Shown here: one piece after another, positions 24,543 through 64,000 of the stretch | How positions within the stretch are numbered: position 1 is the stretch's first letter | Layout: each line of letters begins with the position of its first letter | Assembly: GCA_025435555.1 (NCBI GenBank) | Contig: JAIWWG010000057.1 | Location: forward strand, 179,131-243,130 | Source of the DNA: Chytriomyces cf. hyalinus JEL632 | Taxonomy: Eukaryota > Chytridiomycota > Chytridiomycetes > Chytridiales > Chytriomycetaceae | Reading direction: 5' to 3' | DNA length: 64,000 bases | Notes under the pieces: generated by a model | What the model was told of the DNA's origin: nothing | Seen by the model: the letters and a program-made list of their open reading frames with translations, nothing else | Database searches by the model: none | Made by a program: the position numbers and the translations under genes

Positions 24543-24615
24543 GCCTGGCTAGCTCAATCGGTAGAGCGTCAGACTCTTAATCTGAAGGCTGTGGGTTCGA
24601 CCCCCACGTTGGGCG
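24543..24615 (+). tRNA. tRNA-Lys(CUU)
   Basis: A 73-nt cloverleaf without intron. Acceptor GCCTGGC pairs with GTTGGGC using G-U pairs, anticodon stem TCAGA/TCTGA encloses loop CTCTTAA with anticodon CTT, and the T-arm loop is TTCGACC. Identical over its full length to the copy at 35289. Confidence 0.97.
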
Positions 24616-25167
24616 CACTTTTGCATTAGATTCGGTTTTGCTGTGGAGTTTAGACGCACCGCGAACCTCCGGTGGGCAATAAAAGGACTTCTCAAAGGAG
24701 AAACAATGCCAGCCTTCATGCGCATTGAGAATTCTGATTGACGCGTAAGAGAAAGTAAAGGCAGTTTTCTCACATATTGACCGCACAGTTCGGTTGTGCT
24801 GTGAACAGTGAACACAAACGCGGAAAAAAGGTGAATTTGGACAGTGCTCGATGCCAAGCCCAACGAGAAAGGCCGAGAGCGGGAGATCCGTTCATTCGCT
24901 ACTCATGTTTGGTTGCAACCGAATAAAGATTTACGCGGCAATCTTTGGCAATGCGCCTTGGGCAAATTCCTGTGCTTGATGGATTTTTCAACTCTGGTCG
25001 TTGTCCTCAGTCAGCAGACAGTTCAAACTCAACCTCCTGACGAGTTCCATCCGTGCGAACATTGCAGCTGGCAGATTTCATGAAGTTGGAGCCGACGCTG
25101 CAGGAGACAATGAGCCAGAATGCAGCCTATATTTATTACCAATCAAAATAACTCAAAATATATCACC
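24616..25167. promoter_or_regulatory. Spacer between tRNA-Lys and MscL gene
   Basis: Several short open frames without recognisable content. The 3' half should hold the MscL promoter. Nothing else seen. Confidence 0.35.
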
Positions 25168-35288: not shown

Positions 35289-35361
35289 GCCTGGCTAGCT
35301 CAATCGGTAGAGCGTCAGACTCTTAATCTGAAGGCTGTGGGTTCGACCCCCACGTTGGGCG
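35289..35361 (+). tRNA. tRNA-Lys(CUU), second copy
   Basis: Identical in all 73 positions to the tRNA at 24543, same strand, anticodon CTT. The flanking sequences differ apart from the adjacent GCA and T-rich 3' side, which can serve as RNA polymerase III terminator. Confidence 0.97.
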
Positions 35362-35516
35362 CATCTTTTTCTCGTCGGTCAGTTTGTCAAGAATCCTGTT
35401 GTCTTCTTTCTGGCCATATTGGATGCGATCCCTTTGTTCAAACGTTCAAACAGTTGGAAGACAATAGACGAAATTTCGTTTTTACTGAATCCATGCATCA
35501 TTCGGTCACAAAGTTT

Positions 35517-45588: not shown

Positions 45589-47194
45589 ATGTCCGACACA
45601 ACAACCCCTGCCGTTGAGAAAAAGAAGCGCGTGGGTCGCAGGCTCGACGATTCCGCCCCAGCATCGGTATTACCCCCCATCATTCCCAGAACCCATTCTT
45701 TGTGTGAAAACAACCAACACACCCCACCTTTCGGACACAGAGACAACAAGAACTGAACAGAGCCAACGGCAGAAAGTTTCGAGAACGGCAAAAGCAGCAA
45801 CTCACATCTCTCGAAATGCAAGTCCAAGAATTTCATCAACTCACTGATTCGCTTCGAACATCGCTTGCGCTTGTGCGGAAGGAAAAGGAGGACTTGAAGG
45901 ATACGATTCACAAACTTGAGCACTCGAATTCGCTGCTTGTCATGCAACAGCAGCAACAACAACAACAACAACAACAACACAATCAATTAATGCTAGTTGG
46001 ATCCAGTCCTTGTTTCAACTGCGCCGCAGAGGCCCTCAAGGCGCAATTCTTTCATGACGAGAACATTGTTCTGAAAGCAAAACTCGCAGCCCAGACAAAA
46101 GAGTTTGAATCATATTTCGGTCAACCTCAACAAATGGGCGACTTTGAGGTCATGTTTGACGATGTGGTCGTGACCCCGTCTCCCCCTGCTGCTGCTGTGA
46201 CTGCTCATATTAGCCAAGTGTCATTGAGCTTTTTGGATTCAAATACTGTGCCGCAAGACCCGCCGAGCACAGTTGGGAGCGTCTTGAGTGATGATTGGAT
46301 GGATGTATTTGGTTTCGAAAACATTACAAAGACTGCGGAACAAATGTACGGACCGCTAAAGGTTGAATTTGCGCGGTATTCTCTGAATCTGATTCCGCTC
46401 GTGAAAGGGAATCATCATGTCAATATTATCCTCGATTCCCTCGTCGTAAGTATCCTTGTTGCTTTTTCACCCTCAAAAACTGATTCGACTCTTTTTGTCA
46501 CCCCACAACTGAAATACAATTTGACAGGCTGCATCACGCACAAACGATCCATCCAAAGTACGAAAACTCCTAACACGCTCATTTGCAGCCAAACACAAAC
46601 TCTTTACATGTCCATTCATGCACCCGACCCAAACAACACGACGAGCCACAATCGACATTCTCAGCACTTTACAAAATTTCAACACGCAGCATCTCGATTA
46701 CATGCTCAGTCTCATTTCGGATAAGCATCGAATGGAGCAAATGTTTCGCGAGCCTTGCAGGATTCATGAAGGGATTGGGAGGACGCAGGAGGCTTTGAAG
46801 GCGGTTCCGTCGCTTTCGGGTGCGCATCAAGTGATCGATGAGTATGCGATTATTGCGTCGCAGGTGATTTTGGTTATTTGCTGCACTTGTTGGTTTTTTT
46901 TTAGTCAGCTCATTGTTTTACTTATTGTTTTCGGAACCAAACACAAAAAAACAGCCTTTCATTTCACCAGAACTGTTTCTGGAACTTCGACAGCGAATTG
47001 AGAAAATTGAGAGGTGGTGCTTGCCTGGATCGGAAGATGCGAAACGTGTGGAAGACATTTTTGTGACGCATCGTCGGGAAAACAAGGCGCTGATTGTGAG
47101 TTTGTTTATTTTTTTTTGGGAAAGAACTGACTCGTACAACAAAAATCAGACGAAACGACTTGAAGAATCCATGCGAGATTTGGATTTGAGTTGA
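45589..47194 (+). CDS. bZIP transcription factor, cluster copy A
   Basis: Exons 45589-45666, 45741-46445, 46528-46863, 46955-47095 and 47150-47194 give 434 aa. A basic N-terminus (EKKKRVGRRL) leads to the bZIP basic region NRANGRKFRERQKQQ, related to the YAP/AP-1 type NRxAQRxFRER but with NG for AQ. A leucine/aliphatic zipper follows (LEMQVQEFHQLTDSLRTSLA). Then come a polyQ tract (10 Q), a CFNCAAEALKAQFF motif, and a conserved C-terminal module with KTAEQMYGPLKVEFARYSLN, HLDYMLSLISDKHRMEQMF, AHQVIDEYAIIASQ and RWCLPGSEDAKRVEDIF. The polyQ-bearing copy of three paralogues in tandem. Confidence 0.85.
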
Positions 47195-47643
47195 AATCCT
47201 ATTTGTTGGGCTGTGGGTCATGACTCTTGTCCAATAAAGGCAACCTGTTCTGACCTTCCCTCCCCCCCCCACTTCCCACGATCCGATGAGCAGACTTACA
47301 GGATGTCCACCCGCAGACGTGCAAACAGAAAGATTTTGAACAGCGCAGTTTTTTACTTTTTTACCAAAACTGATCGATCTATCTGGGACAATTTGATTGA
47401 CATTTGATTCCAAATCATTTTCATACACTTGTCAAGACCTCGAGTGTATGCGACCGAGCGATTCAGTCAACATGATCCCAACTCAACCCCTCCCCCCCCT
47501 TTCTCGCACTGACCCCGCGTCTTCTTGAACACTTTGTTTTGGTTCAAATTCCGCCGAGGCTGCTTACGTAAATTAGAAAAAAAAGGATCGATATTTTTTT
47601 TTTTGCTTGCCCAAAAATAGCCTTTGGATTTCAAAAAAGACGG
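47195..47643. promoter_or_regulatory. Spacer between bZIP copies A and B
   Basis: No gene. C-rich tracts (47262-47271, 47488-47497) and a T-tract before the next start; should carry the promoter of copy B. Confidence 0.4.
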
Positions 47644-49244
47644 ATGTCTGATTCACAAAGCGAGGCTCCCGAGAAGAAGCGCGTTGGTCGAAAGCTCGCA
47701 CATACAACCCCTGCATCGGTATGGCCCCTCCGTACTTTCATGTTCACAAGCATCCTCATCACCAAAGACAACATCCACCCAAAACTCTATGAAACCGCCC
47801 CCATTGTTTCCCTCTAGCGACACCAAGAACTCAACAGATTGAATGGAAGAAAGTTTCGAGAGCGCCAAAAGCAGCAATTGGCGTCTCTCGAGAAACAAGT
47901 CGCCGAATTCCACGATCTCAGCCAGTCGCTGCGACTGTCTCTATCACTGCTGCAGAGGGAAAATAACGGTTTAAAGGACACGATTCAGAGTATTCAGCAG
48001 TCCAATGCACTGTTACTAGCGAAGCAACAGCAAGCAGAGCTGCGGGGCGTCGAAAACCAGTACCGTCCGAACGATTGCATCAACTGCGCCAATGAAGCTC
48101 GGAAAGCTCAGTTTTACTATCAAGACAATCTTGCGCTCCAAGCACGGCTTGAGGCTCAGACGAGGCAGTTTGAGTTGGAGCGGTATCATTTGACGCAGGC
48201 TGCTGGGACAATGAACTTGACGAATGGATTGGACATGCTCGGAATGGTTTCACCCCCACCTGCTCCGCTGCGCATCAACAATAGTCAGACGCCAATGTTC
48301 AAGTTGGAGGCATCGATGTTAAAAAACAATGATGCGAGTTTGTCTACGGGGACGCTGAGCGATGAATGGTCCGATGTTTCCGGGAATGAGAATGCCGTCA
48401 AGACTGCGGAACAAGTACATGGCCCATTGAAGGTGGAATTTGCGCGGTATTCTTTAAACATGTTTCCACTGTTGAAGGGACACCATTTCTTGAATGTGTT
48501 TTTGGATCCTCTTGTGGTACGTTTTTTTTTCTATTCGTTGTTTCATGCTCCTATTCCTCTCATCCTTTTTTTTTTTTCACATCTTTCAGGCTGCTTCTCG
48601 AACAACAGACCGTGCCAAGCTGCGGAAACTGTTGACAAAGTCGATTGGAGCACAACATAAAATCCTCGAGCTTTCTTTACTCCATTCCACCAAGGCAGAC
48701 CATGACGCCATTTTCGACACCCTCCACACCCTTCGCAGTTTCAACGCCCTGCATTACGATTACATGCTTGATTTGGTTTCGGACAAGGATGGAATGGAGC
48801 GTCTGTTTCTGACGCCGTGTGATATTCGTCCAGTGATTCGGAAAACTCAGCAGGCTTTGAAAGCGGTTCCTTCGCTTGCGGACGCACACCGTGTGATTGA
48901 TGAGTATGCAATTATTGCGTCACAAGTGAGTTTGTTGTGCTTTTTTTCCGACTTTCCTTGTTGCGGCAGTTGAAGTTGAAATGTTGACTTGACAACTCAG
49001 CCGAAACTTACGCCTGAGCTGTTTATGGAGCTGCGGAATCGATTGGGCAGGATTGAGAGGTGGTGCATTCCCGAGACGGAAGATGCGAAGCGGGTTGCCG
49101 AAATCTGGACTACTCACCGTCGCGAGAATAATGCATACATTGTGAGTGGACTGTTTGTTATGTGTGTGCTGTACGTACTGATCCTTTTCGACTGTTCAGG
49201 TAAACCGGCTGGAAGAGGCCACAAGAGGTTTAGATCTGAGTTGA
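47644..49244 (+). CDS. bZIP transcription factor, cluster copy B
   Basis: Exons 47644-47718, 47818-48516, 48590-48925, 49001-49141 and 49200-49244 give 431 aa. Basic region NRLNGRKFRERQKQQ, zipper LEKQVAEFHDLSQSLRLSLS, CINCANEARKAQFYY, KTAEQVHGPLKVEFARYSLN, YDYMLDLVSDKDGMERLF, AHRVIDEYAIIASQ and RWCIPETEDAKRVAEIW. Exon lengths 336, 141 and 45 and all intron phases equal those of copies A and C. Closest to copy A by inspection. The C-terminal module outside the bZIP is not a family I recognise. Confidence 0.86.
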
Positions 49245-49375
49245 CAAACACTTTTGCCAAGAGGGGATATTTGCATGAATGAGAAGTTAATAAATTTAAT
49301 GTTGACGTTGCTCGATTCTGATTGGCTGAACGGCACTTCCGCATTTTGGCGGAAATTGCATTTTTAAACAAAAAA

Positions 49376-50976
49376 ATGATGCACCAGATTGACCTGCCGC
49401 TCTCCGCACCAAGTCGTCCAGTGTCACACCCACCCCCCGATGAACAGCAACCCCCCAAAAAGAAGCCAAATGTCGGTCGCAAAATAGATCCAAACATTCC
49501 TCCAACGGTAACTTGCTTTCCCCCCTTCCCCCATTCCATCCGGCTTGGGAACGCTCACTCATCCATCCACACACCCAACCCCACCTACAACGATCATCTC
49601 CTACAACAGAGACAGCAGGAGCTCAACAGAGCCAACGGCCGAGCGTTTCGAGAGCGTCAGAAGCAACAGTTTGCATCCCTCCAAATGCAAGTGGCCGAGT
49701 TCCACGACTTGACCAACTCCCTTCGTCAGTCGCTCTCACAGCTTCAGGATGAGAACAATGGCCTTCGATCAACGATTTCTCAACTAGAAACAGCGAATGC
49801 GACACTATTGATGCATACACCTCCGCCTCGGATTGTAGGACCGCCCTGTACCGCTGCTGCTGCTGTCGGTGGGCACAACTGTGCTGCAGAATCAGAACGG
49901 TGCGTGATGCTTGAAACCAAAGTTGCGCAACTGGAAGCCAAGTTGAAAGAGTATGAAAAGCCGTGGGGGTACCAGCAGATGGTGTCGGCATCGACGCTCT
50001 TGGCAAGCTTTGATTTTGTGTTTGGAGCGCCGACTGACTCGAGCGTCACTTCTTCTTCGCCGGATCGATTGCGTAACGGGTCTCCTGAAAGCATTAATTC
50101 GAGCGTGGATGTGAAGAATGAGGACTTTGAAAATGGGTCTCTGAAGACGTCGGAGCAGTTGTTTGGCGGCATCAAAGTGGAGTTTGCTCGGTACTCTCTG
50201 CAAAGCATCGATTCTTTGAAAGGGAATCCGCTTATTGACCAGGCCCTGGATTCGTTGATTGTGAGTCTTTTTTGCCCCCACTTCGAAAAAACCCAAACAC
50301 TGTGGTTTACAAAAACCTGGTTCTTTTGTTTCCAGAGCGCATCCAAAACTTGCGAAAAACAAAAGCTGCGAAAATATCTCATGCGCACATTCATGGCCCA
50401 GGCAAAGATCCTCAGCACCATCACTGCCTTCATCAACCGCAAAGACCACTGCCAAATCCACGACATTTTCAACACCCTCCGCGCATTCAATCGGCAACAC
50501 TTGGACTATATGCTGGACATGATTGTCGACAAGGAAGACTTGAAGCGGCTGCTTCATGAACAGCGACCGGTATCACCTGAGACGGAGATGCTCGCCACGT
50601 CTCTCAAAGAAATTCGATCGCTGGCTTCAGCTCATGCCGTGATTGATGAGATTTGTATACTGTCATCGCTGGTGAGTCGTGCAAAATTCGTTTGGGGGGT
50701 GTTGAACCTGACACTTCTTTTTTTGCAGCCGAAAGTGACCCCCGAAATTCTGATGGAACTGCGGAAACGGAGAGAGATTCTGGAAAATCTTTGTGTGCCT
50801 GGATCCGAGGAATCCCATCGGCTCCGTTTTGCAATGAAAAAGCATCGACCTGGAAATAAGGAAGACATGGTACGCTGAATTTTATTTATTTTATTGAAGC
50901 ATGGTGTTTTAACATGTCGCATTGGTAACAGATGAGACGGCTGGAAGAGGCGATGAATGAGTTAGATGTGAATTAG
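49376..50976 (+). CDS. bZIP transcription factor, cluster copy C
   Basis: Exons 49376-49507, 49610-50260, 50336-50671, 50729-50869 and 50932-50976 give 434 aa. The N-terminus is longer and Pro-rich. Basic region NRANGRAFRERQKQQ, zipper LQMQVAEFHDLTNSLRQSLS, a shortened Cys motif (GHNCAAESERCVML), KTSEQLFGGIKVEFARYSLQ, HLDYMLDMIVDKEDLKRLL, AHAVIDEICILSSL and NLCVPGSEESHRLRF. The most diverged of the three copies, yet with identical exon sizes 3-5. Begins 131 bp after copy B ends. Confidence 0.86.
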
Positions 50977-54256: not shown

Positions 54257-54329
54257 TGTTCTCGCCCGGGATCGAACCGGGGACCACAAGTGTGTTAGAC
54301 TTGTGTGATAACCACTACACCACGAGAAC
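54257..54329 (-). tRNA. tRNA-Val(AAC)
   Basis: Acceptor GTTCTCG pairs perfectly with CGAGAAC. Anticodon stem CAAGT/ACTTG encloses loop CTAACAC with anticodon AAC. The T-arm is CCCGG-TTCGATC-CCGGG. No intron. Its 5' end is 7 bp from the LTR of a Ty3-like element. Confidence 0.96.
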
Positions 54330-54336
54330 TTTTGCT

Positions 54337-54653
54337 TGATAGGGAATTGACCAAGAGCTGCGGCGTGGCTACGTGATCAATTTAAGGAGTTTGGATTGAG
54401 TTGGAGAGTGCTAAGAACAGAGAGAAGATTGAGAGGAGACTGATCTTTATTGAAGTGATAACGTGCGCTTTAAATAGCGTTACTGAATAAAGAGGAAAGA
54501 AACGATTGGTGATGAGGCGTTGTGGAGGTGATGTCATTGTGTACAGTCAAGAAACGATTGGTGATGAGGCATTGTGGAGGTGATGTCATTGTGTACAGTC
54601 AAGAAACGATTGGTGATGAGGCATTGTGGAGGTGATGTCATTGTGTACAGTCA
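54337..54653 (-). repeat. 3' LTR of Ty3-like element 1, 5'-truncated
   Basis: Begins on the plus strand with TGATAGGG and matches 58984-59300 base for base apart from one noticed difference (GTACAGTCA against GTACGGTCA). It lacks the terminal 64 bp present in the other LTR. Contains three tandem 52-bp units (54499-54654). Preceded by TTGCT (54332-54336), the target-site duplicate. Confidence 0.9.
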
Positions 54654-57600
54654 AGAAACGATTGGTGAGGATGTCGTCCGTATTCGAGGTAGAAAGGTGT
54701 GTAGCCAGTACTTGAGTTGACAGTGTCGTTGATACCAAACTCAATCTTGGGCAAATGCTCGTCCCAGTCGTCTTGGTAAGGGGCGACAAAATGTCGGAGG
54801 GCTTGGAGGACCCAGTCGTTCTTTTGTTCAGTTTGGCCGTCAGTTTGTGGATGCGAGGAGGTAGAGATGGTGAGCTTTATCTTGAGGGAGTTGCAGAGTT
54901 CTTGCCAGAAGTTGGAGGTGAACTTGACGTCGCGGTCAGAGATGAAGTGGACTGGAATGCCGTGGTGAGGGAAGATGTGTAACTCAAACAGGTTGGCAAT
55001 GTCGCGTGCAGTAGAGGTGGTGTGGCATGGGATGAGTCTTGTGCGTTTAGTTCCAGAGTCGACGACTACCATAAGAGAATCGTATCCAGACTTGGTGAGT
55101 GGGAGCTTGGTCATGAAGTCCATTGAGCAGGTGTGCCATGGATAAGGTGGGACATCGTGAGGCTGGAGGAGTCCGTATGGAGCGTGACGAGCTACCTTGA
55201 GGCGTTGGCAGTTGTCACAGTTTTGGCAAAGGCGCTGGACGTCGCTGTGAAGCTTGGGCCAGTGGAAGTAGCGAGTGAGTCGTTCTGAGGTACGTTCCCA
55301 GTTGTTGTGGATGGCTGGACCATAAGAGTGAGCTTTTTCAAGAAGTGAGTGACGGAGAGGGGCTGGGACGTAGAGACGGGCGTGAGTCTTGTCAACGTAG
55401 TGGAGGAGTCCATCTCGTAGGCGGTAACGTGCTATCTGAGAGACTAGGTGCTTGGGAGCTTTGGATGGGTCGTTATCGAATGTGTCTGGATTCAGTGGAT
55501 CAACAAGGTATTGTGCGATTTCTAGGAACTGAGGGTCGGTAGTGTTCATGTCCTTGATGTCGGCCGTGAGGTCATCAGTGATTGTCAAGGAGGTTGTATT
55601 GAGGAGAAGGTATGATTCTGGTACTTGGAGGATGGTGTGGACAGAGTTCTTGTAGGTGTTGACTTGAACAGATGCATCTGTAGCGAAGCGGCGCCTTGAC
55701 AGTGCGTCAGCAATGGTATTCCACTCCCCCGGTGTCCACTGAATCTGGAAATCGTAGGCGAGAAGGTCAGCGAGCCAACGGTGATGGACGGGGCGGAGCT
55801 TGGGTTGCGTGAGAATGTGGCGGAGGGACTGGTGGTCTGTGAAGGCGAGGACGTTGTTTCTGAGGAGGTACTGACGGTAGTATCTGAGACATTCGACGAG
55901 GGCGAGGATTTCACCCATGTAGGGATGATAACGAGTTTCTTCTGGCTTGAGTTTGCGGGAGTAGTAGGCGATGGGCTGATCGATGCCATTGGAGTCAGGC
56001 TGAGCAATGTATCCCCCAACAGCGCGGGCGGACCAGTCAGTGTACAGGTGGACAGGAAGTTCTGGATTGAAGATGGCGAGCATGGCTGGGGATGAGAGGA
56101 GAGTCTTGATTTCGCGGAAGTGATGACGCGCTGTGTCATTCCATTTGTCGGTAAAGGAGGTTGTCTTGTGGTCTCGTAGGAGGTCAGAGAGAGGCGCGAC
56201 AAGTGAGGCGTGACTTTTGATGAAGCGATGGACAGTATTGGCAAGGCCGAGGAAGGAGCGGAGTTCTGAGAAAGAGGTAGGTTCCTCAAAATCTCTGATG
56301 GACTGAGTTCTGGAAGGAAGGACAGAGACTGATCCTCTATTGATTTGATAACCGAGATATTCGAGTTGTGTCTGGAAGAAGGAACACTTGGAGAGGCGTA
56401 GGTGGAGTTTGTGGTTTTGGAGTCGCTGGAGTACCATGTCGACATGGCGGAGATGGTCTTGTTCATTGTCAGAGAAGATGAGGATGTCGTCGATGTAGAC
56501 TATGACAAAGACGTCAATGAAGTCTTGGAAGATTGTGCTGAGTGTGGTCTGGAAAACACCTGGAGCGTTGGCGAGGCCAAAGGGCATAACAACCCATTCG
56601 TAGTGGCCGTATTTAGTGCGGAAGGCAGTTTTGGGGATGTCAGATTCTACAATCCTGATTTGATGGAAACCGGACTTGCAGTCGGCTTTGGTAAAGAATT
56701 TGGCCTTGGAGAGGCGGTCGAGGGATTCTAGGATGTTGGGAAGGGCGGCGCGGTTCTTGACGGTCAGTCTGTTGATGGCGCGGTAGTCAAATACAAGGCG
56801 GAGTTTGTCTTTCTGTTTGACAAAGAAGACAGGAGCGCCAAAGGGCGAGGTGGAAGGTCTGATGCGGTGATGCTTGAGCAGGTAGGTAAGTTCTTCTTGA
56901 AGAGCCTTCAGTTCTGGAGCGCTCATGGGATAGATGGGTCGGTAGGGAGGTTCAGCACTTGCTGTTGGATCGAGGTCAATTTTCATGTCAGTAGGTCGGG
57001 ACGGAGGAAGGCCTTCAAAAGGCGCGAAGACATCTGGGTACTTGGAGACCAGTTCTTGGACGTTAGGAGGGAGGGACTTGCGGACAGCTTCATCTTTTTT
57101 GTCGATCTCGGCTGAGGTAGTGGTGGTTGATACTTCTTGTTCTTCAGGTATTATGGCACCAAGGAAGTCATCAGGCTGTAGGGTTTCAAGGAGGTTCAGA
57201 AATTGGTTGGCAGTAAGGATCTCCGGCGTGGAGCGTGGGGAGCGGCATTTCCAGCTGTGTGGACCAATGCGGACTTGGTTTGTCGGCCAGTCGATAGAGG
57301 GATTGTGGGCGTCAAGCCAGTCCTTTCCGAGGATCAGGTCATACGCGAGTTCAGGAACGGTAGTGAAAGAGCGAGAGTCGCTAAAGGTAGTGTCATTTAT
57401 TTTCAGTTTAAGGGTTTCGGTACGCTGGCCCTTAACTATGGATCCATCAGCTAGCTTGATCTTGCAGGCCTGAGGAATGAGAGATTTATCTTGGAGGAAC
57501 GGTAGGTTGGAACGGATGAAACTGGGGTTGGCACCAGAGTCAATGAGGATGGAAACATGATGATCGTTGATGGTTCCTTGGCAGATGAGGAGGCCAGGAG

Positions 57601-57793
57601 TGTCAGAATATGGGGCATGGTGTTCAGACTTGACGTGGTACAGGGGGCGCTTGGGACGTGGGACTTGGACAGGAAAAACAGGGACGGTAACGGCAGTTAG
57701 ATTGTCAGGTGGATTATCAAAGGGCAAGGCGGAGAAACGATTAGAGTTCGTGATCGCTATCTTCTTCTTCATCTTGGGCTTGAGTTGCGGCAT
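54638..57793 (-). CDS. Pol polyprotein of element 1 (PR-RT-RH-IN, truncated)
   Basis: Reads in the +1 frame relative to gag, from about MPQLKPKMKKK. Order: protease LIDSGANPSF (about 57531-57553), reverse transcriptase with YIDDILIF (about 56484-56505), RNase H (AFTDHQSLRHIL, GEWNTIADALSRR), the integrase zinc-binding region (HSYGPAIHNNWERT...CQNCDNCQRLK) and the DDE core with SMDFMTKLP, SDRDVKFTSN and DGQTEQKN. The frame then ends HPHQSFLDCTQ by running into the LTR repeat. The integrase C-terminal domain is missing. No chromodomain remains. The frame itself has no stops or shifts. Confidence 0.93.
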   Translation of the reverse strand: MPQLKPKMKKKIAITNSNRFSALPFDNPPDNLTAVTVPVFPVQVPRPKRPLYHVKSEHHAPYSDTPGLLICQGTINDHHVSILIDSGANPSFIRSNLPFLQDKSLIPQACKIKLADGSIVKGQRTETLKLKINDTTFSDSRSFTTVPELAYDLILGKDWLDAHNPSIDWPTNQVRIGPHSWKCRSPRSTPEILTANQFLNLLETLQPDDFLGAIIPEEQEVSTTTTSAEIDKKDEAVRKSLPPNVQELVSKYPDVFAPFEGLPPSRPTDMKIDLDPTASAEPPYRPIYPMSAPELKALQEELTYLLKHHRIRPSTSPFGAPVFFVKQKDKLRLVFDYRAINRLTVKNRAALPNILESLDRLSKAKFFTKADCKSGFHQIRIVESDIPKTAFRTKYGHYEWVVMPFGLANAPGVFQTTLSTIFQDFIDVFVIVYIDDILIFSDNEQDHLRHVDMVLQRLQNHKLHLRLSKCSFFQTQLEYLGYQINRGSVSVLPSRTQSIRDFEEPTSFSELRSFLGLANTVHRFIKSHASLVAPLSDLLRDHKTTSFTDKWNDTARHHFREIKTLLSSPAMLAIFNPELPVHLYTDWSARAVGGYIAQPDSNGIDQPIAYYSRKLKPEETRYHPYMGEILALVECLRYYRQYLLRNNVLAFTDHQSLRHILTQPKLRPVHHRWLADLLAYDFQIQWTPGEWNTIADALSRRRFATDASVQVNTYKNSVHTILQVPESYLLLNTTSLTITDDLTADIKDMNTTDPQFLEIAQYLVDPLNPDTFDNDPSKAPKHLVSQIARYRLRDGLLHYVDKTHARLYVPAPLRHSLLEKAHSYGPAIHNNWERTSERLTRYFHWPKLHSDVQRLCQNCDNCQRLKVARHAPYGLLQPHDVPPYPWHTCSMDFMTKLPLTKSGYDSLMVVVDSGTKRTRLIPCHTTSTARDIANLFELHIFPHHGIPVHFISDRDVKFTSNFWQELCNSLKIKLTISTSSHPQTDGQTEQKNDWVLQALRHFVAPYQDDWDEHLPKIEFGINDTVNSSTGYTPFYLEYGRHPHQSFLDCTQ

Positions 57794-58895
57794 TGTTAAT
57801 TCTGGAAGTGGATGGCTTGGCGGAGAGCTGGGCTTGACGGGCACGGAGCTTGGGGCAGTGGTCAGTGTCGTGGTCCTTGGCTTGGCAGTAGACGCACCAA
57901 CCTCTGGAGCGGAAGTGGGCTTTCTGTTCTGGGGTGAGACGTGGGTAGGGAGACGTTTGTTGAGTGTTTCCAAGGTCCATAGGGTCGGATGAGTCGGGGA
58001 TGGAGTTCTTGAGTGTATGGCCTTGGGCTGGTCGAAAGGACTGTGTGCGTGTGGTGGAGGAAGTTGCGGTATTTTTACGAGTGTCGGCGGCGGTACGTTT
58101 ATTGTGGCGGTAGGTGAGATCATCAAGTTTCTCAGCTTCATACTGAAGGTGGTCAAGATTGTCTTCAATAGCAAAAATGGCAGGATTACTACGGATGTGG
58201 AACTTGAGACCTTGGAGGTATTTGACGCAGAGATGCCTGGCTGGGTAATCGATTCCTGAGGCGGCAATGGCAGAGACAAGTTCATTGAATTTGCAGGAGT
58301 AGGTTACTGCTGAGCTGGTTTGTTGGAGGTCCTCCATGGCTTCGATAGCTTGTTTCAAGCTCAGATGAGAACCGAAAGTTCTCTTGATCCAGGCAGCGTA
58401 TTCGTTCCAGGACATATAGAATCGTTCTGTTTCGGACAGGCGGCGCCAGTATATGCGTGCGTTACTGCATAGGCCTTCGGAGACAAAATGTACGTATGTT
58501 GGTTGGTCTTGTTTAGTAATGTGGTCAGTAGATAGAGCGAAACCATGGAGTCTGCAGGTTGAGGATGAGCGATTGAGGTAATCGTCAAGGTAGTTTTGTA
58601 TTTCGTGGGCTGGCCTATTTCGATGGTTCCCAGAGAATTCGAGAGGTTTGATTGATGGCATTCTGAAGATAGGTAGTCGACGTTGAGCTGGGACTGGGGC
58701 ATTAGATTCGTCCAGGATGGCCTGGTTGATAGTTGGGGCTGGTACTGGTGCTGGAGGGTTGAGAGGTTCACGTTCACGTAGGGTAGTTACTTCAGCAAAC
58801 AGTCTTTGGACAGCTTCAGTCAGTTGGGCCAACTGAGTTTCGTACCGCTGGATGATGTGGTCTTGATTACGGTCATTTGGGGTTTCTGGGTTCAT
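57741..58895 (-). CDS. Gag protein of element 1
   Basis: About 384 aa starting MNPETPNDRNQ, chosen to match MNPEAPSEQVQ of element 2; the frame is open to 58982. Coiled-coil N-terminus (YETQLAQLTEAVQRLFAEV), capsid region (PAHEIQNYLDDYLN, GLKFHIRSNPAIFAIEDNLD) and one zinc knuckle CVYCQAKDHDTDHC of the CX2CX4HX4C type. Packages element RNA into virus-like particles. Overlaps pol, which lies in the +1 frame. Confidence 0.92.
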   Translation of the reverse strand: MNPETPNDRNQDHIIQRYETQLAQLTEAVQRLFAEVTTLREREPLNPPAPVPAPTINQAILDESNAPVPAQRRLPIFRMPSIKPLEFSGNHRNRPAHEIQNYLDDYLNRSSSTCRLHGFALSTDHITKQDQPTYVHFVSEGLCSNARIYWRRLSETERFYMSWNEYAAWIKRTFGSHLSLKQAIEAMEDLQQTSSAVTYSCKFNELVSAIAASGIDYPARHLCVKYLQGLKFHIRSNPAIFAIEDNLDHLQYEAEKLDDLTYRHNKRTAADTRKNTATSSTTRTQSFRPAQGHTLKNSIPDSSDPMDLGNTQQTSPYPRLTPEQKAHFRSRGWCVYCQAKDHDTDHCPKLRARQAQLSAKPSTSRINNAATQAQDEEEDSDHEL

Positions 58896-58983
58896 TATGG
58901 ACGGCTGGAAGGCAAGTATTTCTTTGGGACTTAGACGGTTGGTTGGATGTTTCTTGGATGGAGGGATTTCCGATGCTACCAAT

Positions 58984-59364
58984 TGATAGGGAATTGACCA
59001 AGAGCTGCGGCGTGGCTACGTGATCAATTTAAGGAGTTTGGATTGAGTTGGAGAGTGCTAAGAACAGAGAGAAGATTGAGAGGAGACTGATCTTTATTGA
59101 AGTGATAACGTGCGCTTTAAATAGCGTTACTGAATAAAGAGGAAAGAAACGATTGGTGATGAGGCGTTGTGGAGGTGATGTCATTGTGTACAGTCAAGAA
59201 ACGATTGGTGATGAGGCATTGTGGAGGTGATGTCATTGTGTACAGTCAAGAAACGATTGGTGATGAGGCATTGTGGAGGTGATGTCATTGTGTACGGTCA
59301 AGAAAAAGAGTGTCCATTGTTCTCAATTAGAGACGCGTGACGGAATCGAGTTGATTACGTAACA
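58984..59364 (-). repeat. 5' LTR of Ty3-like element 1
   Basis: 381 bp, minus-strand start TGTTACGTAATC and end TATCA. Directly followed (minus strand) by ATTGGTAGCATCGG, a primer-binding-site candidate whose TGGTAGCATC is shared with element 2. Carries three 52-bp tandem units at 59146-59301. The right boundary is set by TTGCT at 59365-59369. Confidence 0.85.
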
Positions 59365-59369
59365 TTGCT

Positions 59370-59690
59370 TGTCACGTAATCTACAGATTCCGTCACGCAC
59401 GTCCAGAAGCTTCGCCACACCAATCAAAATTCCCACAGACACAAAATTTACTCACAGCAAATTCCAACACTCTAACACTCCCCAGACACGATCGCGTCTT
59501 CGTTATTACTTTTTCTATCATTTCAAGTGCCACTGTTGTCTTCCTTACATTTGCCACAAAGGCTATTTAAGAAGGCCTTTCTTGATTCAATAAACGGAGG
59601 TCTCTCAATAATCTCTTAACTCTCTCAACTCCTCTCAAGTCCTCTCCCAGTCTTGAAGCTGCAATCGAGCTCTTGACTACTTCCGTAACA
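59370..59690 (+). repeat. 5' LTR of Ty3-like element 2
   Basis: 321 bp from TGTCACGTAATC to CCGTAACA. Its first 30 bp are homologous to the start of the element 1 LTR (shared ACGTAATC and GATTCCGTCACGC), which creates the palindrome at the junction. CTATTTAAG near 59561 and CAATAAACG near 59589 are plausible TATA and polyadenylation signals. Followed by ATTGGTAGCATCAGC, the primer-binding-site candidate (59691-59705). The matching 3' LTR is not in the window. Confidence 0.8.
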
Positions 59691-59775
59691 ATTGGTAGCA
59701 TCAGCAAATTCCTCCAAGTAACTACCGACCTCCAAGAAAACCCCAAGAAAAACGCGTCCCATCACGAATCAAGAA

Positions 59776-60906
59776 ATGAATCCAGAAGCCCCAAGTGAAC
59801 AAGTCCAAGTCCAGTTTCAAGCAGTAATCCAGAGGTACGAAGACCAACTCTCCGAGTACCGTGAAGCCCTCCACAACCTCTACAACGAAGTAGCAGCCCT
59901 CCGCACACCTCCAGTACCAGTCCAGACCACCCCAAGCGAACCTCCTGCCACCATCCAACGTCCATTGCCTCTCTTCAGAATGCCAGCTGTCAAGCCCCTC
60001 ATCTTCTCAGGGAACCACCGCAACTGTCCCGCTCATGAAATCCAGAACTACCTCGACGATTACCTCGAACGCTCCCGTGAAATCTGTACCCTCTATGGTT
60101 TTGCTCCTTCCACCAATGACCTGACCCAACAGAACCAGCCTACCTACGTCCAATTTGTTTCCTCTGGTCTCTCTGAAACTGCACGTGTTGCCTGGCGCCG
60201 TTTCCCCGAACAAGAACGCCACCACATGACCTGGAATGACTACGCCGCCTGGATCCAGAAAGCCTTTGGTTCCCACCTCACTCTCAAGCAAGCCATTGAA
60301 GCCATGGAAGACCTCCAACAGACCAGCTCAGCCACCCTCTACACCTCCAAGTTCAATGAACTTGTCTCTGCTATCGCCGCCTCAAGTGTCCAGTACCCAG
60401 TCAAGCATCTCTGCGTCAAGTACCTCCAAGGCCTCAAGTTCCACATCCGTACCAACCCAGCCATCTTTGCCATCGACAAAGACCTTGACCACCTCCAACA
60501 AGAAGCTGAAAAACTGGATGACCTCACTTTCCGTCACAACAAACGCAACGCCGCTGAAATCCGCAAGAACCCCTCAACGGCCACCACGTCCCGCGCTTCA
60601 ACCAATCAGTCCTTTCGATCAGCCCAAGGCCACTCCTTCAAAACAGCCATCCCTGAAACCAACGACCCGATGGACCTTGGGAACACTCAGCAAACAACAC
60701 CCTACCCACGTCTCACCCCAGAACAGAAAGCACTCTACCGTTCCAATGGCTGGTGCGTTTACTGTCAAGCCAAAGACCATGATACCGACCACTGCTCCAA
60801 ACTCCGTAACCGTCAAGCCCAGCTTGCCACCAAGCCCCCAGCCAGAATTAACAATGCCTCAACTCAAGCCGAAGGTGAAGAAGCAGACAGCGAAGTCGAA
60901 CTCTAA
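59776..60906 (+). CDS. Gag protein of element 2
   Basis: 376 aa. N-terminal coiled coil (YEDQLSEYREALHNLYNEVA), capsid motifs PAHEIQNYLDDYLE and GLKFHIRTNPAIFAIDKDLD, and zinc knuckle CVYCQAKDHDTDHC close to the end. Acidic tail EEADSEVEL. Intact. Confidence 0.93.
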   Translation: MNPEAPSEQVQVQFQAVIQRYEDQLSEYREALHNLYNEVAALRTPPVPVQTTPSEPPATIQRPLPLFRMPAVKPLIFSGNHRNCPAHEIQNYLDDYLERSREICTLYGFAPSTNDLTQQNQPTYVQFVSSGLSETARVAWRRFPEQERHHMTWNDYAAWIQKAFGSHLTLKQAIEAMEDLQQTSSATLYTSKFNELVSAIAASSVQYPVKHLCVKYLQGLKFHIRTNPAIFAIDKDLDHLQQEAEKLDDLTFRHNKRNAAEIRKNPSTATTSRASTNQSFRSAQGHSFKTAIPETNDPMDLGNTQQTTPYPRLTPEQKALYRSNGWCVYCQAKDHDTDHCSKLRNRQAQLATKPPARINNASTQAEGEEADSEVEL

Positions 60907-62551
60907 TTGGTTCTCTGCCCTCCCCTTTGACAATCCACCCGACCACCTGACCCCAGTTACTGTCCCTGCTCCTTCCGTTCAAGTCCACTGTCCCAAGCTT
61001 CCCCTGTTCCAAGTCCAGACCCAGCACTCCACGCCCTACGCCGACAGTCCCGGCCTCCTCGTCTGCCAAGGTACCATCAATGAACACCCCATCTCCATCC
61101 TCATTGACTCTGGAGCCAATCCAAGTTTCATCAACTCAAGCCTACCGTTCCTCCAAAACAAGTCCCTCGTTCCTCAAGCCTGCAAGATCAAGCTCGCCAA
61201 CGGTTCTGTTGTTAAAGGCCAGCGTACCAAGCCTCTACAAGTGAAAATAAACAATACTTCATTCCAAGACTACCGTTCTTTTACTACTGTCCCTGACCTC
61301 ACATACGACCTGATCCTCGGAAAAGACTGGCTCGATGCCCACAATCCCTCCATTGACTGGCCAACAAACCATGTCCGCATTGGTCCACACAGCTGGAAAT
61401 GCCGTTCTCCGCGTTCCTCTCCGGAAGTCCTTACCGCGCAGCAATTCATCAATCTCCTCCAGACCCTCCAGCCCGACGATTTCCTCGGAGCCATCCTGCC
61501 TCAAAAGATAAAGGTTACTACGTCCGACAGTGACAGAGCCGACGAATCTATACGTACCTCCCTCCCGCCAAACCTCCAGACGATCATGGACCAATATCCA
61601 GATGTCTTTGCCCCATTCGAGGGCCTACCGCCATCCAGACCTACCGACATGAAGATCGATGTAGATCCTTCTGCTAACTCCAGCCCTCCCTACCGACCAA
61701 TCTACCCAATGAGCGCCCCAGAACTCAAGGCCCTCCAAGAAGAAATCACTTACCTCCTCAAGCACCAACGCATCAGAGCCTCCACTTCCCCTTACGGAGC
61801 TCCTGTCTTCGTTGTCAAGCAAAAGGATAAACTACGCCTTGTCTTCGACTACCGCGCCGTGAACAAACTCACCGTCAAGAATCGCGCTGCCCTCCCAAAC
61901 ATCCTGGAGTCCCTCGACCGCCTCTCCAAAGCCAAGTACTTCACCAAGATTGACCTCTCCTCCGGCTTCCACCAGATCCGCATCCAAGAATCCGACATCC
62001 ACAAGACTGCCTTCCGCACCAAGTATGGCCACTACGAATGGGTCGTTATGCCCTTTGGCCTTGCAAATGCTCCCGCCGTATTCCAGACTACCCTCGGCTC
62101 CATATTCCGTGACTTCATTGACGCCTTCCTCACTGTCTACATTGACGACCTCCTCATCTTCTCCGAGACCCTCGAAGACCACCTCAAGCACATAGACCAA
62201 GTACTGCAACGCCTCCAAGCCAACAAGCTCCACGTTCGCCTTTCCAAGTGCTCCTTCCTCCAGCAAGAACTCGAATACCTTGGCTATTGGATTGCTAGAG
62301 GTTCCATCTCTGTCCTACCATCCAGAACCAGCTCCATCACTGACTTTGAAGAACCTTCCAACTACTCCGAACTTCGTTCCTTCCTGGGACTTGCCAACAC
62401 CGTCCATCGCTTTATCAAGCACCACGCCGCCCTCATTGCGCCTCTCTCAGACATCCTCCGTGACCACAAGACTACCTCCTTCTCCAACAAGTGGAATGAC
62501 ACAGCCCGTGTCGGTACAAATGGTGGTGGCACGCAGTACGAGGGTTTGTGA
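60855..62551 (+). CDS. Pol fragment of element 2 (PR-RT)
   Basis: In the +1 frame relative to gag, continuing from MPQLKPKVKK. Protease LIDSGANPSF near 61100-61129. RT with DLSSGFHQI, FGLANAPAVFQTTL and YIDDLLIF (62138-62161). Homology to element 1 ends at KWNDTAR; the last residues (VGTNGGGTQYEGL) are translated from the inserted LTR-like segment. Not functional on its own. Confidence 0.9.
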
Positions 62552-63541
62552 CTTGAGGACTAGGTGCTACAACGATGATTTTGGTCTAAGAAGATGTTTA
62601 TTTGCCTTGTGGAAGCTCTACCATTTATACCCTTTGGAATAGAACATGAAAGAATCACTCATGGGTGGAAAATCGTGGGTATCTCCATGGTTTTCTATTT
62701 TTTCACGGTAGAAATTATAAAGAACCGAGATGGAAATCCCCCGAACGTCCCCAAAGACTGTTGGGCCTTTACCAATCCAAAAAGTTACGATTTGAATAAG
62801 AAACTATCCAACCAACGTCCAAAGTGCATATGACTGTATCCTTGGACCTCTGACGGGGACTCTCCCACCTGGGTAGGGAGCCATGGGTCCAAGTGACGGT
62901 GTACAGGTAAGCAGCGCTGCCTGCTGTCCATGTACGTTTCAGCGTGTCAGTTTGACTGTGGTGTACTAACTTTGAACTTTGCTTATGCAAGATCTGGGTC
63001 CTCAAGTGCCGCCTGTCCAGGCTCAAACCTTCGTTTCAACTACACAAGCTATGTACTGGTGTGTTTCTGCCGAATGCTTGGTGTTGCAGGTAGGTTGGCT
63101 TAGTACTGTTGGTATTCTCTAGAGTGATAGAGTCTGACACCTTATGACGACTTGGTGAGGGTGTCATGTGATGGTGTGTTATCGTGGTGGATCGTTTAAG
63201 GTCCCAACTTTGTGTAAATAAAGATTTATTGGGGTCTTGGCAGTATGCCTCACAACTTCTCATCCAGTGACCATAGATAGCCGTGGATGGCACGTGGGTG
63301 CTCGTAGGACTTGGCAGATGTGCCAGAGACCTGTGTGTGTGATCGACGGTGTGTTACCGTCCCCGTGGCTTGTCTATATTTACACGAAGTCGTGTGTATT
63401 TCACATTTTTGTTACGTATGGGGTCTGCAGGTGCTCAAACACCTGTTTCCCACATCTTCATGCATTCCAGAGATTTTGAGCTCTCCTTTATGTTGAGTAC
63501 ATGAGGAGACCACTGGTCCACCTTGACCAGGATCCGCAACA
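62509..63541. mobile_element. LTR-like segment of 1.03 kb, unrecognised element
   Basis: Bounded by TGTCGGTACAAATGG and GATCCGCAACA, so it starts TGT and ends ACA as LTRs do. It separates two pol fragments that lie in opposite orientation. It contains AATAAAGATTTATT near 63219 and no coding frame of note. The flanking pentamers GCCCG and GTGGA differ, so no target-site duplication supports a simple insertion. A solo LTR involved in recombination is the favoured reading; a noncoding DNA transposon is the alternative. Confidence 0.5.
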
Positions 63542-64000
63542 GTGGAGGAAACCGTCGCGGAGTCGATATCTTGAGATCTGAGGGAGGAGGTGCTTGGGAG
63601 CCTTGGATGGGTCGTGGTCGTAGGTTTCTGGGTCCAGTGGGTCAACTAAAAACTGCGCTATTTCTAAGAACTGGGGGTTGGCAGTGTTCATGTCCTTGAT
63701 ATCGTTCATGAGGTTATCAGTGATGGTCAGGGTCGTGGTGTTGAGCAGGAGGTAAGATTCTGGGATCTGGACGGTAGAATGGACGGTGTTTCCTTGGAGG
63801 TTGACTTGAACGGAGGCATCAGTTGCGAATCTTCTTCTTGACAGTGCGTCAGCAATGGTGTTCCACTCCCCCGGAGTCCACTGGATCTGGAAATCGTAGG
63901 CCAGCAGGTCGGCTAACCAGCGATGGTGGACAGGGCGGAGCTTGGGTTGGGTGAGGATGTGGCGAAGGGACTGGTGGTCGGTAAAGGCGAGGATTTGATT
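63542..64000 (-). pseudogene. Pol fragment of a third Ty3-like element
   Basis: Minus-strand sequence homologous to the RNase H end and connection region of element 1: AFTDHQSLRHIL-type sequence at the window edge, GEWNTIADALSRRRFATDAS, ESYLLLNTTTLTITDNL, IKDMNTANPQFLEIAQFLVD and SRYRLRDGFLH. Homology stops at CTCCAC next to the LTR-like segment. It continues beyond the window, so the element's extent is unknown. Confidence 0.85.

Follow-up and report, generated by a model that had tools for sequence, protein, structure and literature searches.

How did two Ty3/gypsy LTR retrotransposons come to lie head-to-head beside a tRNA-Val(AAC) gene of Chytriomyces cf. hyalinus JEL632, with each LTR start flush with the same pentamer, TTGCT? 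In the analyzed stretch of 64,000 nucleotides (the window), ARAGORN located the target gene at 54257..54329 on the minus strand, with its 5' end at 54329. Direct reading placed TTGCT at 54332..54336, beside the tRNA, and again at 59365..59369, between the two 5' LTR starts, as a preliminary description of the locus had claimed. Counted from the mature 5' end, the tRNA-proximal copy spans –3 to –7, which puts the outer edge of the duplication 7 bp away; the ARAGORN coordinates thus agree with the 7-bp spacing given in that description. The LTR boundaries proposed to abut TTGCT were also borne out, since the LTR ends match those of other genome copies. In the simplest history, element 2 preceded element 1, which landed between element 2 and the tRNA gene; that is, element 2 (family B) probably inserted first at TTGCT, and element 1 (family A) later re-used the tRNA-proximal copy of the pentamer.

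Element 1 lies on the minus strand. Its 5' LTR (58984..59364; 381 bp, with approximately three units of 52 bp) was delimited by LTR comparison and has the ends TGTTACG...CCCTATCA, and the adjoining primer-binding site (PBS) region (ATTGGTAGCATCGG) was read directly at 58970..58983. The gag frame, from stop to stop, occupies 57741..59015 (Pfam Retrotrans_gag), and the pol frame (PR-RT-RH-IN), likewise from stop to stop, occupies 54638..58303 and is in the +1 frame relative to gag, as judged by coordinates. In pol, the Pfam models RVT_1, RNase H and Integrase_H2C2 scored above the cut-off and rve below it. Compared with a copy at another locus (L024), element 1 has a net loss of 643 bp that extends from the integrase C-terminus through the PPT into the 3' LTR, whose first part is missing; the remnant of that LTR (54337..54668, minus strand) lacks the 5' part and contains 3.3 copies of the 52-bp unit. 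Element 2 lies on the plus strand, with a 5' LTR of 321 bp at 59370..59690 (TGTCACG...CCGTAACA), a PBS region read directly at 59691..59704 (ATTGGTAGCATCAG), a stop-to-stop gag frame at 59722..60906 and a pol frame (PR, RT) at 60230..62508, which is +1 relative to gag by coordinates; both frames were identified by reading frame and Pfam. Only the left half of element 2 is present, because another repeat interrupts it at 62508, where pol is broken; the open frame continues to 62551 inside that repeat, and the contig, 243130 nucleotides long, stops at window position 64000. Repeat comparison assigned the interrupting sequence (62509..63541, approximately 1033 bp, TG...CA) to a family designated F.

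We surveyed five LTR families in this one genome, from which all survey counts derive: A (that of element 1), A2, B (that of element 2), C and D. Because the copies were the best-scoring candidates, at most 40 per query, old copies are under-sampled. The lists contributed 44/49, 40/40, 38/46, 12/40 (the others being distant or partial) and 40/41 LTR rows, and these 174 rows were merged into 169 LTRs and then 97 groups, 18 of which had no decisive outer edge. For family D, the tRNA sides of four copies were taken from listed tRNA genes and the remaining flanks from the LTR list, and the outer-side flanks of six LTRs fell outside the sample. A tRNA 5' end was abutted by 64 of the 97 groups, with gaps of 6 bp (2 groups), 7 bp (10), 8 bp (21), 9 bp (21), 10 bp (7) and 11 bp (3); the outer edge of the duplication was accordingly 6–11 bp, and mostly 8–9 bp, upstream of the 5' end of the mature tRNA. 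The chance probability of an LTR edge at this distance is approximately 3e-4 per insertion, computed as if all 1887 tRNA candidates of a first look were genes. The target genes cover at least 15 amino-acid types, and 8 of 63 tRNAs picked independently of LTRs carried an LTR edge of this kind. Insertion occurred in both orientations (same/opposite: A, 12/5; A2, 7/6; B, 7/9; C, 2/2; D, 2/12), with family D leaning to one.

Both outer edges could be read in 62 stacks, with the window excluded. Among these, 51 had a tRNA 5' end at a distance of 6–11 bp and nine lay beside tRNA-like sequences (four at a dispersed repeat X, four at a repeat Y and one at another sequence; one of the repeat X stacks, C25, was scored as having no neighbor by the script and reassigned by hand), and two (C59 and C173:259735) adjoined no recognizable gene of RNA polymerase III (pol III). 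These counts, obtained from the best-scoring copies of five families, reveal the tRNA bias expected of other copies and support the suggestion that strict pol III targeting operates in this lineage. At loci beside stacks lacking an assigned gene, Rfam searches at E-values up to 1 returned no match in 13 loci, and at gathering scores 16 loci yielded only tRNAs and one U2. Family F, the LTR-like control family (40 of 162 candidates scored), had no tRNA near any of the 10 copies examined. The TG...CA LTRs, with a PBS behind the 5' LTR, a PPT ahead of the 3' LTR and a short duplication, conform to those of Metaviridae. The order of domains, with gag upstream and RT and RNase H preceding integrase (from the Pfam order in L024 pol and the window frames), is that of Ty3/gypsy elements, and the clustering of insertions at a set position beside pol III genes, together with the negative control family, is that of the pol III-targeting class.

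The duplicated 5 bp matched exactly in 43 of 63 groups, were shifted by one base in six and did not match in 14. Four of these 14 are explained by the deletion in the window, by two elements in C207 with swapped ends and by a mis-set edge in C25; the remaining ones are unexplained or have doubtful edges. Several elements may occupy one place on one gene, and at 18 abutting junctions with a known tRNA-proximal pentamer, the junction pentamer was identical in nine cases, related in nine and unrelated in none. The window junction was counted by hand as exact because the deletion had split its group. The proposed re-use of the same 5 bp therefore recurs, with the exact pentamer kept at eight further junctions. 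An origin of the twin arrangement by recombination between elements, rather than by two insertions at one pentamer, has some basis, since rearrangement between repeats does occur (the swapped duplications in C207 and the join at 62509–63541 in the window); however, exact retention at those eight junctions, which involve various families and orientations, makes it quite improbable. If the tRNA-proximal element is the later one, as appears to be the case in the window, then stacks would grow between the tRNA and the older elements. LTR divergence (0–1.9% in same-family pairs) resolved the age order within none of the stacks, and a full tRNA-proximal element with a distal solo LTR was found in 7 of 10 informative stacks read by hand (one-sided P = 0.17).

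We also analyzed the promoter context of the insertions. Correctly placed A and B boxes were present on 53 of 60 testable tRNA-side flanks (4 of the 64 tRNA sides being too short for this test), on 4/4 flanks at repeat X, with the fifth (C25) identified by hand, on 4/5 at repeat Y and on 1/3 at other tRNA-like sequences; in the 62-stack set, eight of the nine tRNA-like neighbors carried both boxes. None were found on 76 other outer flanks or on 16 family-F flanks, and the background rate was 20 of 107,600 positions. Repeat X, which has a tRNA-like promoter, provides an empty-site comparison within the same genome: 31 copies are uninterrupted and five are interrupted at one site, which has been filled by four families (A, A2 twice, B and D). 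Whether insertion tracks a CA-type start site instead of the tRNA end was tested as well: an initial correlation was biased by leader length, and the shuffle test that replaced it was not significant (P = 0.26).

We regard as the best reading, with a probability of about 0.88, that both elements are members of a set of related Ty3/gypsy LTR families of Chytriomyces, and that the integrase complex of these families is guided to the pol III transcription start region. The five families share a near-fixed insertion distance at tRNA genes and at tRNA-like repeats bearing A and B boxes, while the target sequence itself varies, and the twin insertion in the window exemplifies this precise landing habit near tRNA starts. 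It could be argued that insertion is near-random in a compact genome and that selection spared only harmless copies beside tRNA genes, given that tRNA flanks are considered safe places in gene-dense genomes in the available text of PMC5006619. Selection would not, however, predict base-level precision (gaps of 6–11 bp), exact re-use of a pentamer or five insertions at one position of repeat X with 31 copies left empty, and none of the 10 family-F copies examined in this genome had a tRNA nearby; we consider this account very improbable. Recognition of a DNA sequence motif rather than the pol III machinery is, in our judgment, scarcely credible: the first duplicated base leans toward A (33/64), but all 64 gap sequences differ, and the feature that they have in common is their position relative to the A and B boxes.

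Within the preferred reading of guidance to the pol III start region, the near-fixed spacing and the 5-bp duplications indicate that the elements work like Ty3. By analogy, the guide would be DNA-bound TFIIIB, which the A and B boxes would help to position, and the distance may be set by contact through the end of the integrase, namely its C-terminal domain and a putative chromodomain lacking the methyl-lysine cage. Targeting could instead be real but tethered to TFIIIC or, in the manner of Ty1, to pol III itself. Such tethers are described for Ty1 and Dictyostelium elements in the available part of PMC5911963, and docking on TFIIIB is itself proposed here from the Ty3 precedent. Nevertheless, the same source gives Ty1 a window of approximately 1 kb, and the narrow spacing in the chytrid is Ty3-like. 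Moreover, an A+T-rich stretch in 54 unoccupied tRNA genes (A+T of 0.94 at –28 and 0.91 at –26, with TATA-like words commonest at –31 and –30) fits a TFIIIB site, and the putative cage-less chromodomain is similar to the portion of Ty3 integrase in contact with Brf1, as described in the accessible text of PMC8632968; a different tether therefore seems unlikely. Of 33 rejoined empty sites, however, only 10 had a TATA-like word located 18–30 bp ahead of the duplication, which counts against the preferred reading.

The label 'Ty3-like' given in the preliminary description holds for behavior but not for membership of the Ty3 clade. A grouping of Ty3 with the chytrid clade in the RT-IN tree was rejected by the AU test (P = 1.5e-5), with the caveats that the tree was a quick one, that Ty3 is a long branch, that rows were sampled by likeness to element 1 and that the tested group was named once the first tree was available. 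The nearest group in the RT-IN trees consists of canonical chromoviruses (rows P0028, P0031–P0033 and P0038), which share an integrase C-terminal domain and, probably, a chromodomain with the chytrid clade; in the alignment, they retain aromatics at the cage positions, unlike the chytrid clade. Elements A, B and C belong to that clade, in which two of the three methyl-lysine cage aromatics are replaced: position 1 is R and position 3 is H in 18/18 rows, with W retained in 18/18, and the intact aromatic cage of chromoviruses is lacking. In the other rows, an aromatic occupies position 1 in 35/39 and position 3 in 34/39. As to a chromodomain fold behind the integrase C-terminal domain, an AlphaFold model of the relative P0019 (whole-model mean pLDDT 69, pTM 0.38) predicts three strands and a helix at 873–920, with pLDDT 66–81 in that segment. 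Pfam Chromo gave no match in L024 pol, and a search of the chromodomain sequence against PDB gave weak, mainly unrelated matches, with one chromobox chain at E = 0.76; a fold search with the P0019 model gave matches led by RT, including Ty3 chains, which do not address the chromodomain. No relatives were confirmed in viral contigs. The cage loss in the chytrid clade is probably convergent with the cage-less chromodomain of Ty3.

Ty3 of Saccharomyces cerevisiae shares with the chytrid elements the RT-RH-IN order, pol in the +1 frame, a target duplication of 5 bp, integration in both orientations at pol III start sites and, probably, a cage-less integrase chromodomain (available text of PMC8632968 and PMC5911963). 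Its site, however, is approximately 12–15 bp from the mature 5' end according to the accessible part of PMC5006619, compared with 6–11 bp here, and the chytrid elements form a separate clade in which one cage W is retained and the remaining cage positions hold R and H. Tj1 of Schizosaccharomyces japonicus, also a Ty3/gypsy element, inserts upstream of tRNA genes, 5–11 bp from the mature 5' end (PMC4600332, in part), but its inserts at pol III genes are described as having one orientation, whereas those in the chytrid have both, with a lean in family D. The dictyostelid elements DGLT-A and Skipper-2 are likewise tRNA-linked Ty3/gypsy elements; as far as the available text of PMC5006619 describes them, DGLT-A differs in inserting approximately 15 bp upstream and in lacking a chromodomain, Skipper-2 differs in lying downstream of tRNA genes, and one Skipper subgroup has diverged chromodomains. 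Ylt1, Tyl3 and Tyl6 of Yarrowia and beta/Tca8 of Candida, also compared by description, differ in host, being elements of ascomycete yeasts. Our literature search found no work on such elements in chytrids; in the accessible portions of PMC3248453 and PMC2864245, only Batrachochytrium is named for this phylum, and tRNA-linked insertion is not mentioned.

These results widen the range of LTR retrotransposons with base-precise pol III targeting to include elements of a chytrid, an early fungal branch, with five families in one genome and an internal empty-site comparison of one repeat (31 empty versus five filled copies), and they bear on the open question of whether Ty3-like targeting uses the same contacts outside yeasts. 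We tentatively propose, with the odds somewhat against it, that in a chromovirus clade present in Chytriomyces and in relatives the integrase chromodomain changed from a histone-mark reader to a pol III ruler, that two cage aromatics were replaced by R and H on the clade stem independently of Ty3, and that pol III promoters, those in dispersed tRNA-like repeats among them, are the target throughout the clade. Since the clade appears to have lost the cage independently of Ty3, comparing the two would show whether the chromodomain has repeatedly been re-used as a ruler. If the proposal is true, cage loss would be a repeatable and readable mark of pol III targeting.

The two head-to-head elements adjoin a minus-strand tRNA-Val(AAC) gene whose 5′ end lies at 54329. 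The pentamer TTGCT occupies 54332–54336 (positions –3 to –7 of the tRNA), and a single further TTGCT at 59365–59369 parts the TG ends of the element 1 5′ LTR (58984–59364, minus strand) and the element 2 5′ LTR (59370–59690, plus strand). On direct reading, all of the positions that the preliminary description had assigned to the TTGCT pair, the tRNA and the LTR boundaries were confirmed. Both elements are incomplete: compared with the copy L024, element 1 has a net loss of 643 bp that takes in the integrase C-terminus, the PPT and the beginning of the 3′ LTR, and element 2 is interrupted at 62508 by a ~1033-bp TG...CA repeat (family F). To the right of this repeat, an inverted family-B-like pol fragment runs up to the contig end (window 62509–64000; position 64000 is the right end of the 243130-bp contig), as if two elements had recombined via F or the assembly had been joined there. 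The contig belongs to Chytriomyces cf. hyalinus JEL632, to which one host protein matched at 100% identity. Elsewhere in the window, three adjacent, partly similar reading frames (45708–50878), one with a Pfam bZIP call, apparently form a small tandem bZIP gene cluster. Two nearly identical tRNA-Lys(CTT) genes (24543–24616 and 35289–35362), with A+T-rich stretches ~30 bp upstream, have no adjoining insertion of families A–D.

We searched the window's own genome (G000; 37.78 Mb, 242 contigs, numbered with C) and recovered five LTR families, scoring at most 40 candidates per query: A (element 1), its relative A2 (276-bp LTR), B (element 2), C (209 bp) and D (192 bp). The 169 LTRs with flanks were sorted into 97 insertions or stacks, and in 64 of these groups a tRNA 5′ end lay 6–11 bp from an outer LTR edge (2, 10, 21, 21, 7 and 3 groups at 6, 7, 8, 9, 10 and 11 bp, respectively); the decisive edge was absent in 18 of the 97. 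ARAGORN named 60 of the 64 target tRNAs, representing 15 amino-acid types, and the remaining four came from the Rfam list. The bias toward tRNA genes that the preliminary description had suggested from this one site is borne out across the five families: where both outer edges were read (n = 62, without the window), 51 stacks lay at a tRNA, 4 at repeat X (including one placed there manually), 4 at repeat Y, 1 at another tRNA-like sequence and 2 at neither. By chance, ~0.02 such placements per 63 would be expected, counting all 1887 first-look candidates as tRNA genes. Conversely, among tRNA genes chosen by Rfam score alone, 8 of 63 had an LTR edge from one of the five families no more than 15 bp away. 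Since 6 of the 52 outer flanks on the non-tRNA side of tRNA-linked groups open with an apparently decayed older LTR end (GAGAATAGG-like), layered insertions may, judging from these sequences, be more common than counted.

A and B boxes were found at the expected offsets in 53 of 60 tRNA-side flanks, in none of 76 other outer flanks and in none of 16 family F flanks (background, 20 in 107,600 positions). Family F, which served as a control, had no tRNA within the ~200-bp flank in any of the 10 copies examined (8 with both flanks), and its 5-bp duplications matched in two (C234 and C49) of the seven copies with both junctions readable.

Repeats X and Y, which neither ARAGORN nor Rfam called as tRNAs, are dispersed sequences with A and B boxes at tRNA-like spacing. 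Using the two flanks of repeat X joined as a query, we found 31 uninterrupted copies, an end fragment and five copies that were interrupted, in each case at the pentamer AACTC, by members of families B, A, A2, A2 and D; for the interruption in C167, a single half was visible and the edge was off by one base. For repeat Y, at least 40 copies were uninterrupted (all of the best 40 of 152 candidates), and at least seven occupied copies were identified from flanks, including one in C236 without A and B boxes in the stretch read. Conservation upstream of the insertion point extends ~65–76 bp in repeat X and ~300 bp or more in repeat Y; L034:1000–1200 and L069 are examples of these repeats. The tRNA relic ZOD1 is a known target of Ty3 (PMC5911963).

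We compared the pentamers within stacks. Among 23 abutting LTR–LTR junctions, the tRNA-proximal pentamer was known for 18 (the window being included by hand). The junction was identical to that pentamer in nine, consisted of the whole pentamer plus 1–5 extra bases in four (C57, C173, C213 and C223), kept four of its bases in three (C166 and twice in C184), and matched solely when LTR end bases were counted in two (C63 and C156); none of the 18 was unrelated. In C64, CGAAA was present four times, common to three insertions (D, A and D). If gaps were drawn independently from their observed distribution, the same gap would recur in about one quarter of cases, compared with at least half observed. 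This re-use is consistent with a complex parked at one place per gene; new elements would then land between the parked complex and the older elements, a landing order that we infer.

Insertions share a place, a duplication and an association with A and B boxes, occur in both orientations and have no fixed target sequence. Of the 14 tRNA-proximal copies of family D, 12 lay on the strand that does not carry the tRNA (P = 0.013), and family A leaned to the same strand as the tRNA (12/17; not significant alone); the seating of the integrase complex on the target may differ between families. In 54 unoccupied tRNA genes, A+T content reached 0.94 at –28 and 0.91 at –26, and TATA-like words most commonly started at –31 and –30. 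At 33 rejoined sites, such words peaked 22 bp before the duplication and fell within 18–30 bp in just 10. For Ty3, the structure places TFIIIB over –15 to –32 and integration at –6/–2 from the start site (PMC8632968); we infer that TFIIIB is also the dock for the integrase complex here. Insertion showed no significant tracking of the start dinucleotide (P = 0.26).

Several variant copies were also observed. Two family A elements in opposite orientation (L047 and L048; C207:72910–78476 and C207:116644–122209) have their duplications, AAGCA and TAACT, swapped, which points to an inversion of ~38 kb between them. A 52-bp unit of varying copy number in the A and A2 LTRs (276, 328, 381 and, once, 402 bp; window 54497–54668 and 59144–59305) is a possible promoter or enhancer repeat. 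One element (C65:27932–33410), possibly a recombinant, combines a family-A 5′ LTR (328 bp) with an A2-type 3′ LTR (276 bp).

Among the best 120 of 1019 pol rows, the closest relatives of element 1 were Chytriomyces confervae P0013 (90%) and then P0014–P0027 (48–61%). In an RT–IN tree of 41 rows, the 15 rows of this chytrid clade were united at support 100, with P0028, P0031–P0033 and P0038 as neighbours. Grouping of the clade with Ty3 was rejected (AU test, P = 1.5e-5, on a quick tree with a long Ty3 branch and a group named after the first tree). In the C-terminal chromodomain-like region, all 18 rows compared (families A, B and C plus P0013–P0027) carry R instead of an aromatic at the first cage position and H instead of one at the third, and retain the W; of the other 39 rows, 35 have an aromatic at the first position and 34 at the third, and the alignment showed the cage kept in the rows nearest to the clade in the tree. 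The predicted structure of P0019, a low-confidence model (mean pLDDT 69, pTM 0.38), has three strands and a helix in this region (pLDDT 66–81). The Ty3 chromodomain, which is without the cage, contacts Brf1 (PMC8632968). The cage-less likeness between the chytrid clade and Ty3 is thus probably a convergence.

The term "Ty3-like" in the preliminary description holds for behaviour and for membership in Ty3/gypsy, but not for the Ty3 clade. The chytrid elements work like Ty3 and also like Tj1. The known pol III-targeting cases that we took from the review table in PMC5911963 are in yeasts and dictyostelids, with no chytrid among them, and our search of the accessible literature found no account of such tRNA-targeting elements in chytrids. 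The chytrid elements add to a known kind of targeting, and convergent loss of the cage is the bold reading.
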